Below, in pieces: positions 57,660-60,536 of a DNA stretch of 64,000 nucleotides. Origin of the DNA: Rhodobacter sp. (lineage in GTDB: Bacteria; Pseudomonadota; Alphaproteobacteria; Rhodobacterales; Rhodobacteraceae). The notes under the pieces were generated by a model. It made no database searches, had not been told where the DNA came from, and was given only the letters and a program-made list of their open reading frames with translations. The translations under genes and the position numbers were made by a program. Each line of letters begins with the position of its first letter. Position 1 is the stretch's first letter. The stretch spans positions 1 through 64,000 of the forward strand of contig JADCEL010000061.1 in the NCBI GenBank assembly GCA_020250125.1, given 5' to 3'.

Positions 57660-58109
57660 TTGCCAACCCATCACGAGACAAAGGCGCTGCCCTACAGCGC
57701 GCAGCAGATGTATGATCTGGTGGCGGATGTCGCCCGCTATCCCGAATTTCTGCCCTGGAATTCTGCCGCCCGCATCACCGCCCGCCGCCCCGTGCCGGAG
57801 GGCGAGGTGATGGAGGCGGACCTGGTGATTTCCTTCAAAGTGTTCCGCGAGACATTCACAAGCCGCGTCACGCTGTGGCCGGACAGGAAGAGGATCGATA
57901 CCGAATATCTGGACGGCCCCTTCCGCAGGATGAAATCGTTCTGGACCTTCCGCGACCGGCCCGAAGGCGGCTGCGAGGTGGAGTTTTTTGTTGATTTCGA
58001 GTTTCGCAACGCGATCCTGCAGGGGATCATCGGCGTGGTGTTCAACGACGCGATGCAGCGCGTTGTCCGCGCGTTCGAGCGGCGCGCGGCGGCGCTTTAC
58101 GGCGGCTGA
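57660..58109 (+). CDS. RatA/Coq10-type SRPBCC protein
   Basis: The 149-residue START-like protein begins at a TTG (PTHHETKALPYSAQQMYDLV) and contains VARYPEFLPWNSAARI and YLDGPFRRMKSFWTF, typical of Coq10/RatA. In bacteria this family is thought to bind quinones or affect ribosome association. It is a single gene convergent with the barrel gene. The TTG is preferred because the N-terminus matches relatives. Confidence 0.87.
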   Translation: MPTHHETKALPYSAQQMYDLVADVARYPEFLPWNSAARITARRPVPEGEVMEADLVISFKVFRETFTSRVTLWPDRKRIDTEYLDGPFRRMKSFWTFRDRPEGGCEVEFFVDFEFRNAILQGIIGVVFNDAMQRVVRAFERRAAALYGG

Positions 58110-58114
58110 GCGGA

Positions 58115-59179
58115 TCAGAACTGAAGACTGAGAACGTTCAGATCGAGGCTGAACGTGACACCTTCAAACAGATCGATGCTGGACTGGCGGTTTTCCACCG
58201 AAAAGGTGGCGCTGAGGTTCGGGTTGATCTGGCCGGTCAGATCAAGGGTTATGACGTTATCGTTCCGGTCCTTTCCAAAAAACACATCCCCGCCTTCGCG
58301 TTCATAGGACAGGCCGATATTGGTTCCGACCCCAAGCACAAGCTGCCCGTAAGACAGATAGCCGCCGTACAGCAGGGTGTTTTCACCCTTGATCTCTTCG
58401 CCCAGGGCGACGCGCGCTGTTATGACACCGCGCCCGTCAAAGTAGCGCTCGACGCCGGCCGAAAGGGATGTCTTCTGGTAATTCTGCTGGAATTCGCGGC
58501 TGATCAAGGCATTGGCCAGCCCGGTTCCGTTTCGCGCCGGGAAAAGCCGGGCAAAGTTCGCGCTGATATAAGTGCTGTCGGCCTCGCTCAGATCGGTCTT
58601 TTCATAGGATGCGCCGCCGCAAAGGTCCAGAAAGCGCCACTCTTGCAGGTAAGACCGGAAACAGGCCTGACCGTTCGCCTTGGTTCTGCTGATGTCATGG
58701 TCCGGGGAATAGACAACTTCGACATTTCCGGCAACCGACAGGGTCTGCCCGGTGCCGATGCTCCACCCGATGGATCGCGAAAACGCGCCGCCGACAACGG
58801 GGCCCGCAACGGCGCGGTATTCGGGATCGATCTTGAAGACAAGCCCGCCGATGGTGAAGGTTTCCCCGGCAAGCCCGCCATTGATATTGGGGCTGTAGGT
58901 CAGAACCGGCTGAACGCTTGTGACGTTCCAGGCGCGCTGTAGGCCCTGGCCTGTCTGGTGCAGAAAGCCAAAGCCCTGTGCCAGGGCGACCACCGCGCCT
59001 TCGGTTCCGGGCACCGCCCGTTGAATCAGGGTATAGAACACCAGCCGCGGCGAAACGGAAAAGAACGATCCCTGCCAGTCCCGTGCAAAATTGCCCGCCG
59101 TCTGGGCAAGCGACAGCCCCGCCGAACAGAAGACAACAAAGATGGCGCAAAAAAGCCGGACAAGGTGCATGATCTTCAT
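58115..59179 (-). CDS. Outer-membrane beta-barrel, Slam (DUF560)-like without TPR domain
   Basis: The 354-residue protein has a signal peptide (about residues 1-25, ending SLAQ) and then alternating-polarity strands ending in phenylalanine (LNVLSLQF), as in outer-membrane barrels. The segment SPNINGGLAGETFTIGGLVF followed by PEYRAVAGP resembles the conserved SNIN..T..LFGLPF..DxxA block of Slam barrels. Slam moves surface lipoproteins to the cell surface. The N-terminal TPR half of known Slams is absent. It lies just downstream of a TbpB-like lipoprotein. Confidence 0.55.
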   Translation of the reverse strand: MKIMHLVRLFCAIFVVFCSAGLSLAQTAGNFARDWQGSFFSVSPRLVFYTLIQRAVPGTEGAVVALAQGFGFLHQTGQGLQRAWNVTSVQPVLTYSPNINGGLAGETFTIGGLVFKIDPEYRAVAGPVVGGAFSRSIGWSIGTGQTLSVAGNVEVVYSPDHDISRTKANGQACFRSYLQEWRFLDLCGGASYEKTDLSEADSTYISANFARLFPARNGTGLANALISREFQQNYQKTSLSAGVERYFDGRGVITARVALGEEIKGENTLLYGGYLSYGQLVLGVGTNIGLSYEREGGDVFFGKDRNDNVITLDLTGQINPNLSATFSVENRQSSIDLFEGVTFSLDLNVLSLQF

Positions 59180-59196
59180 GCTGTCCGTGATCGGCT

Positions 59197-59853
59197 TCAG
59201 GGCTGTTCTGCCGTGAACACCCCGACTATTGGGCTACCCTTACCGGTGAACCCATCGTTAAAGCCAACAGAGCCAAGTATCATATCGCCCCTTGCCCCAA
59301 GGAACTGACCCGCAATATTACCGGTGAAGTTTAAAGTTTCCCCCCCCACGATATTCGTCCCGCTTAGCGTGCCCCCGAACACAGCATCATTGCCAAAGTC
59401 ACTCGTTCCTATTGTTCCGCCTTCTAGTTTGATATCTATTCGACGGGACCCGTTTCCTGAATCACGAAAACTGTCCAAATCGCCACTAACAGAATCGCTG
59501 GCAAAGTCAGCCACCAACCTAACCCTTGAAACGTATTCAGGGTCACTTATAATGATTTGCTCGTATTCCGGGTATTTCTTGTCGACAAGCCTTTCCGAAC
59601 TGGTCACGTAAGAGGCTGCCCCCAAGTAGGTCGCGGTTCCAACATCAGGAAGCCTTGCGAATTGCGTCTTTTCAACGCCTGTTTGTTTCTGGAACAGCGA
59701 TTGGCTAAGTTCATTGGTTGCCGCGAAGGACGGGATCGGCCGGATCACGAAATTGTCCTTGGACTCGCTTGATCCCGAACACCCCCCGACCAGCAGCGCC
59801 ATTGCGCCCAAGGCAACCACAGTCCGACGTCTGCTATGCACAAGTTTACTCAT
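59197..59853 (-). CDS. TbpB/FHbp-like beta-barrel surface lipoprotein
   Basis: The 218-residue protein has a lipobox LLVGGC (Cys25). It ends with a beta-rich domain, GGTLSGTNIVGGETLNF and GQFLGARGD, then GKGSPIVGVFTAEQ. This pattern resembles the C-terminal barrel of TbpB, factor H-binding protein and other Slam clients. The ATG at 59853 is chosen. It is the first gene of a pair with the barrel (17 bp gap). The coding DNA is less GC-rich than its neighbours. The ligand is unknown. Confidence 0.55.
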   Translation of the reverse strand: MSKLVHSRRRTVVALGAMALLVGGCSGSSESKDNFVIRPIPSFAATNELSQSLFQKQTGVEKTQFARLPDVGTATYLGAASYVTSSERLVDKKYPEYEQIIISDPEYVSRVRLVADFASDSVSGDLDSFRDSGNGSRRIDIKLEGGTIGTSDFGNDAVFGGTLSGTNIVGGETLNFTGNIAGQFLGARGDMILGSVGFNDGFTGKGSPIVGVFTAEQP

Positions 59854-60050
59854 GGGCCGCACACTCCTGATCCCTACCAACAACATCGTCACCTGCGGAC
59901 AGATCGCAAGGTGCCGCAGCCTTCAACACACCCAAAGCAATAGTCACGAATTCAGCACGCGCAAGCAAAACCTTTGTGTTTCGTTCACAGATGCGCCGGT
60001 CGATCACCCGCGCGTGTTGACAGGACGCTGTCTGCGCGACATGGCGCAGA

Positions 60051-60536
60051 TCACGCCGGGTCGGCCCCGCGCAGAGCGCGCTGCAACATCTCAAGCGCAT
60101 GGTCCACCGTTGCCCGGCGCACCTCTGCGCGTCCCAGCGGGCCAAAGTCCACCGTTTCGGTCCGCGTTTCCGCGCCGGTTGCGGCAAGACCAAAGCACAC
60201 CCGGCCTTCCGGCTTGTGGTCTGACCCGCCGGGGCCGGCGATGCCGGTGACCGACACCGCAAGGTCTGCGGCAGACCGCGCAAGGGCGCCTTCGGCCATG
60301 TCCCGCGCCACCTCTTCAGACACCGCGCCAAACCGGCGCAGCCTGGCTGCGGGCACCCCCAGCATGTCGGACTTGGCCGCGTTGGAATAGGTGACAAACC
60401 CCCGGTCGAAAATGTCGGACGATCCGGCAACACCGGTGATGGCCCCGGCGATCAGCCCGCCGGTGCAGCTTTCGGCGGTGGCGATTTTCGCGCCCCTGCG
60501 GCGCGCCAGGGCCAAAAGCGCCTCGGCCCCGGTCAC
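60051..60536 (-). CDS. pncC: CinA-family nicotinamide-nucleotide amidohydrolase
   Basis: The 161-residue protein contains [37 protein letters not shown] and [22 protein letters not shown], the CinA C-terminal (PncC) domain. It deamidates NMN to NaMN in pyridine nucleotide recycling. The GTG start at 60536 overlaps the pgpA stop (GTGA), so the two are translationally coupled. Confidence 0.9.

Follow-up and report, generated by a model that had tools for sequence, protein, structure and literature searches.

Two adjoining genes in a Rhodobacter genome raise the question of whether an outer-membrane barrel of the Slam type could export a lipoprotein without the TPR domain that described Slams carry. 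The window analysed here is a stretch of 64,000 nucleotides from Rhodobacter sp. (assembly GCA_020250125.1, contig JADCEL010000061.1). A preliminary description of it, made from the DNA letters, had proposed that a lipoprotein with a TbpB/FHbp-like barrel and a Slam (DUF560)-like barrel lacking the TPR half form a shortened surface-export pair, perhaps for metal or haem capture.

Gene pair and genomic setting

Both genes are real open reading frames on the minus strand, encoding a lipoprotein of 218 aa and a barrel of 354 aa, and the coordinates in Table 1 confirm the proposed arrangement, including the 17 bp between them. The pair is flanked by ordinary housekeeping genes, as judged from Pfam matches (at 60051, 57660-58109 and 57053), which we take to be cinA, a coq10-like gene and hpt, respectively. 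The order cinA, lipoprotein, 17-bp gap, barrel, coq10-like gene, hpt is kept in three near relatives, the Rhodobacter MAGs L015, L016 and L017. Within the wider barrel family, a lipoprotein neighbours the barrel at 21 of the 27 loci with enough flank (none is adjacent at the other six), and these pairs look like operons, some with overlapping start and stop codons. Chance pairing is excluded, because the three near relatives keep the gene order and 21 of 27 loci have a neighbouring lipoprotein. The preliminary description had staked its proposal on synteny and on co-occurrence in related genomes, and both were found. A promoter and terminator scan gave nothing usable.

Table 1. Features of the gene pair, in window coordinates
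Feature	Coordinates	Strand	Basis
Lipoprotein gene, predicted cargo, 218 aa	59197..59853	-	PF01298, NF041636, AF2, Foldseek
Lipoprotein signal peptide and lipobox LVGG-C25	59779..59853	-	Sequence; C25 invariant in alignments A3 and A4
Predicted eight-stranded C-terminal barrel of lipoprotein, residues 73-217	59203..59637	-	AF2
Intergenic gap, 17 bp	59180..59196	-	Same length in L015, L016/L048 and L017
TPR-less Slam-like outer-membrane barrel gene, 354 aa	58115..59179	-	hhalign, Slam HMM, AF2
Two predicted short helices in place of the Slam TPRs, residues 44-69	58973..59050	-	AF2; very weak TPR-half match, E 0.07
Predicted 14-stranded barrel domain, residues 83-349	58133..58933	-	AF2 secondary structure
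NINGG...F-IGGLVF-DP motif, common to TPR-Slams	58823..58888	-	Alignment of 64 barrels
Cys173, first Cys of clade-specific C-x13-C	58661..58663	-	28/28 TPR-less, 0/36 TPR-Slams
Cys187, second Cys, on neighbouring strand	58619..58621	-	28/28 TPR-less, 0/36 TPR-Slams

Lipoprotein

The lipoprotein starts with an SPII signal and lipobox (MSKLVHSRRRTVVALGAMALLVGG-C), in which Cys25 is invariant across aligned relatives, and its C-terminus reads ...GVFTAEQP; an alternative GTG start is possible at 59892. Its score against PF01298 (TbpB_B_D) is 25.3 bits (E 2.4e-5; curated cut-off 26), and the lipoproteins of relatives L071 (32.2) and L051 (29.9) pass this cut-off. The NCBI model of Slam-dependent lipoproteins, NF041636 (slam_lipo), matches the window lipoprotein weakly (E 1e-3, 19.4 bits, cut-off 80).

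The AlphaFold2 (AF2) model of the lipoprotein (pLDDT 84.5) comprises a long and a short helix together with eight strands (residues 73-84, 107-116, 121-131, 139-150, 156-169, 172-185, 191-198 and 209-216). Its best Foldseek matches in the PDB are fHbp (E about 1e-6; TMt 0.76 to the isolated C-terminal barrel, 4ayn), TbpB, HpuA, NHBA and the hemophilin of A. baumannii, and almost all of the top 50 matches are Slam/type 11 secretion system (T11SS) cargo or belong to the same structural class. NHBA is counted among Slam/T11SS cargo. T11SS cargo also include fHbp, TbpB and hemophilins (PMC12282271), and HpuA is a Slam2-specific cargo (PMC7857515). Judging from the predicted model, the window lipoprotein has the fold of an exported cargo, with a C-terminal eight-strand barrel like that of these proteins, as had been proposed from the letters. 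In contrast to cargo of the fHbp/TbpB type, this short protein consists of one barrel and a small helix at its N-terminus and has no handle or effector domain.

The suggestion of metal or haem capture fared less well. No TonB receptor or haem gene adjoining the pair was noticed in the flanking stretches read, and Gly, Pro, Tyr and Phe make up most of the invariant residues in the lipoprotein alignments, which include no invariant ligand residues. A metal or haem role is thus unsupported, and the lipoprotein shows no sign of host-factor, metal or haem binding as in fHbp/TbpB-type cargo.

Homology of the barrel to Slam

The barrel gene encodes a signal peptide at its start and ...SLQF, with a terminal Phe, at its end; the NINGG...TFTIGGLVF block occupies residues 98-115. 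These features, like the signal peptide and lipobox of the lipoprotein, are present as first read. Searched against Pfam and NCBIfam, the window barrel matched no family, and PF04575 (DUF560, cut-off 22 bits) gave nothing for it even at E 10. In its own genome, which is 87% complete, PF04575 had no match and a profile of Rhodobacteraceae TPR-Slams found no TPR-Slam. A sequence search of the PDB with the barrel returned nothing at E 10, and searching the PDB brought up no solved structure of a Slam. Foldseek with the barrel model gave only generic porins and autotransporters in the PDB (TM by query length no higher than 0.43) and nothing useful among viral models.

Profile comparisons were more informative. 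The hhalign alignment of the TPR-less family profile with a Slam profile, built from 23 PF04575 Slams of alphaproteobacteria, scored 125 (E 3.9e-16, 309 columns), against control scores of 35.5 for Porin_4, 31.2 for OMP_b-brl and 41.6 for the autotransporter profile; a porin or autotransporter match, which had been named as fatal to the proposal, was thus far weaker than the match to Slam. Used on its own, the Slam HMM picks up the window barrel (E 7.4e-6 with Z=100000; best decoy barrel E 0.18). In the reciprocal search of 240 alphaproteobacterial genomes, the TPR-less profile matched only three proteins outside its own family, all of them known TPR-Slams, and each match begins at the NIN motif. 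The AF2 model of the barrel (pLDDT 84.6, pTM 0.77) has 14 barrel strands, the number anticipated by the preliminary description and that of Slam barrels (PMC5449769, PMC7857515).

By these profile tests, the window barrel is homologous to the barrel of Slam (SlipAM; PF04575), the outer-membrane protein of type 11 secretion. The proposed likeness to Slam therefore held as homology by three profile tests, and failed as membership of PF04575. The family is a sister clade of Slams rather than a standard Slam, because PF04575 does not match the window barrel at all; we do not file it as a Slam since both a PF04575 match and a TPR domain were tested for and absent. It is a homologous clade that probably works in a like manner. 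The two groups share the block D/S-x-N-x-N...F-GG-x-F...A-x-x-G, a conserved Arg near the end (26 of 28 TPR-less barrels and 35 of 36 TPR-Slams) and the adjoining cargo lipoprotein. The TPR-less family differs in the missing TPR domain and in a C-x13-C pair of its own, found in all 28 members examined and in none of the 36 TPR-Slams. The spacing of the pair is exactly 14 residues, and in the model the two Cys lie on adjacent strands (163-177 and 182-194).

About 30 homologues of the TPR-less barrel were found, all in Rhodobacteraceae, where some 26 of the 397 genomes have the barrel family; the class search of 240 alphaproteobacterial genomes gave none outside it. In an unrooted maximum-likelihood tree of 64 barrels, one branch parts the TPR-less from the TPR-bearing sequences, with support of 100/95 and in all bootstrap trees.

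Absence of the TPR domain

No TPR domain was matched in the window barrel by domain search, and the model has only two short helices after the signal peptide, so that the missing TPR half noted earlier is borne out. Some 43-88 residues precede the barrel in the TPR-less family, compared with 120-265 in TPR-Slams. The N-terminal segment of the TPR-less profile aligned with the last part of the Slam TPR half at E 0.07, too weak to call, and TPR_4 matched one family member at E 0.085. A 589-aa frame of L004/L052 was considered as a TPR fusion and rejected; in its upstream part it reads the lipoprotein gene in the wrong frame. That the pair is a shortened version, as the preliminary description put it, is likely, and a single loss of the TPR domain would be the simplest reading of the tree; being unrooted, its single split fits loss or gain.

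Relative to described Slams in the open-licence PMC literature, the TPR-less branch is new: Hooda et al. 2017 reported both domains in 832 of 832 Slam sequences and found no DUF560-only sequence (PMC5449769). This universality is also a reason to consider that a Slam-like translocon here might receive the TPR function in trans, from a separate periplasmic TPR protein or a chaperone. T11SS cargo do use Skp (PMC12282271, PMC9090332), and unrelated TPR-like frames occur in these genomes as weak matches. However, no TPR gene was paired with a TPR-less locus in the flanks read, and in NilB, the lipoprotein translocon of a Xenorhabdus T11SS, deleting the whole N-terminal domain was stated to relieve the defects that small deletions within the TPRs bring about (PMC8406197). 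We regard supply in trans as unlikely. NilB naturally has a TPR domain, which the window barrel lacks, and its greater tolerance of whole-domain removal than of partial deletion suggests, by analogy, that the TPR domain may not be strictly needed.

Twelve genomes that are at least 93% complete have a TPR-less barrel and no strong TPR-Slam. The TPR-less barrel can thus be the sole Slam-type protein found in a genome, and does not appear to depend on a TPR-Slam. A genome of the same genus as the window (G563:C110) has a Slam-like frame with TPR and barrel, L220, whose start is unclear and which may represent an additional Slam or one in decay; given this frame, another Slam may have a helper role in the genus. 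Genome G108 has two TPR-less barrels, L053 and L014, in addition to a TPR-Slam, L203; the lipoprotein of L053 lies downstream of the barrel instead of upstream, and L014 has no lipoprotein of this type.

Proposed mechanism and cargo diversity

We consider it likely that the two genes are a cargo-translocon pair, in which a TPR-less barrel of the Slam/T11SS type passes the neighbouring lipoprotein through the outer membrane. From the signal peptides, both proteins would be exported by Sec and the lipoprotein acylated. Each later step is modelled on Slam biology: the unfolded lipoprotein would pass the outer membrane via the 14-strand barrel, and its C-terminal eight-strand barrel would fold outside, held by the lipid tether. 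The barrel would do so without a TPR domain, the two-helix N-terminal segment and the cross-strand Cys pair being its own features. Counting against the pair as a translocon are the lack of a PF04575 match, the 6 of 27 loci without a lipoprotein, the neighbouring lipoproteins at some other loci in which a TbpB-type barrel is not recognisable by sequence, the incompleteness of the genome (87%) and the presence of L220 in G563.

The lipoprotein seems to evolve faster than the barrel. Between the window and L015, identity is 90% for the barrel and 53% for the lipoprotein. Barrel identities among the window, L015 and L016 are 90-95%, and lipoprotein identities are 82% for the window and L016 and 70% for L015 and L017. 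The groupings also disagree, the lipoproteins pairing the window with L016 and L015 with L017, and the barrels pairing L015 with L016. Such discordance and fast divergence would fit surface exposure and allele exchange, and the lipoprotein alleles suggest either that cargo alleles are exchanged or that the cargo diversifies fast.

Tight gene pairing, with one barrel per lipoprotein, could also be expected if the lipoprotein faced the periplasm as a partner or plug for the barrel, in the way that LptE serves LptD, instead of being exported. We find this improbable, since its fold is that of exported cargo such as fHbp and TbpB, and its far faster divergence would be expected if it is an exposed cargo but not if it is a subunit fitted to the barrel. 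The chances are slimmer still that we are dealing with an ordinary porin or a channel for small molecules, beside which the lipoprotein lies by chance. Porin_4 (PF13609) does match three family members weakly (best E 7.1e-5), and porins appear among the Foldseek matches of the model, but those matches are generic, the porin profile scores far below that of Slam and is not the strongest family, and pairing and synteny recur across genera; porin identity as such was rejected on the hhalign controls. Decay to a non-functional Slam fragment, which the shortness of the barrel relative to described Slams might suggest, is hardly credible and is refuted by about 30 homologues that keep open frames, signal peptides and invariant Cys, N, G and P across deep divergence within one clade.

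Returning to the cargo-translocon pair, about ten of the 21 neighbouring lipoproteins are recognisable by sequence as TbpB/Slam cargo. The remaining ones, chiefly a group of ~290 aa, are not cargo-like by sequence, and no TbpB-type barrel was recognisable by sequence in the lipoproteins of the L049 group and of L063/L069. The ~290-aa lipoproteins lie directly upstream of TPR-less barrels (L049, L050, L052, L055, L058-L061 and L064), often with a stop codon that overlaps the barrel start codon, and have no significant Pfam or NCBIfam match; they are possibly a new cargo type. A profile link joins the ~290-aa lipoproteins to the small ones, but over the signal-peptide half only, and it was not accepted as evidence that their barrels are homologous. 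Lipoproteins of ~200 aa that resemble that of the window occur in many Rhodobacteraceae, some in tandem arrays (L171-L196; e.g., G197:C30, G529:C20 and G018:C2); none of these has a Slam-type barrel less than 1.5 kb away.

Less firmly than for the pair itself, we lean towards a broader conclusion: a monophyletic, naturally TPR-less branch of Slam/T11SS, in which a barrel of ~350 residues with its own disulfide would be the entire translocon, serving several fast-diverging types of lipoprotein cargo, some without a TbpB-type barrel.

Relation to known systems

The TPR-less clade bears on the part of the TPR half in translocation, client choice or chaperone docking. Found in free-living bacteria with cultured relatives, it provides a naturally minimal candidate translocon on which to base reconstitution and structural work. 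The PF04575 model misses a branch of Slam-type barrels, and therefore surveys of surface lipoproteins in Rhodobacteraceae undercount.

A 2025 survey of T11SS described a cluster 3 of Roseobacteraceae/Rhodobacteraceae, the bacterial family of the window, with predicted cargo lipoproteins, some loci having a lipoprotein of 282-375 aa with a predicted eight-strand barrel (PMC12282271); a term search of its main text gave no mention of TPR. The cluster 3-like barrels found here (L199-L206, L044 and L075) bear TPRs and belong to another clade than the TPR-less barrels. The ThyX, glyoxalase or DUF1194 setting of cluster 3 was not noticed at the TPR-less loci read. L075 has a glyoxalase neighbour, as in the survey, and the TPR-bearing Rhodobacteraceae clade that it exemplifies fits cluster 3, the TPR-less clade being separate. 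Outside the cluster 3-like clade, a further TPR-bearing Slam, L074 (G561:C659), has a TbpB-like lipoprotein directly upstream.
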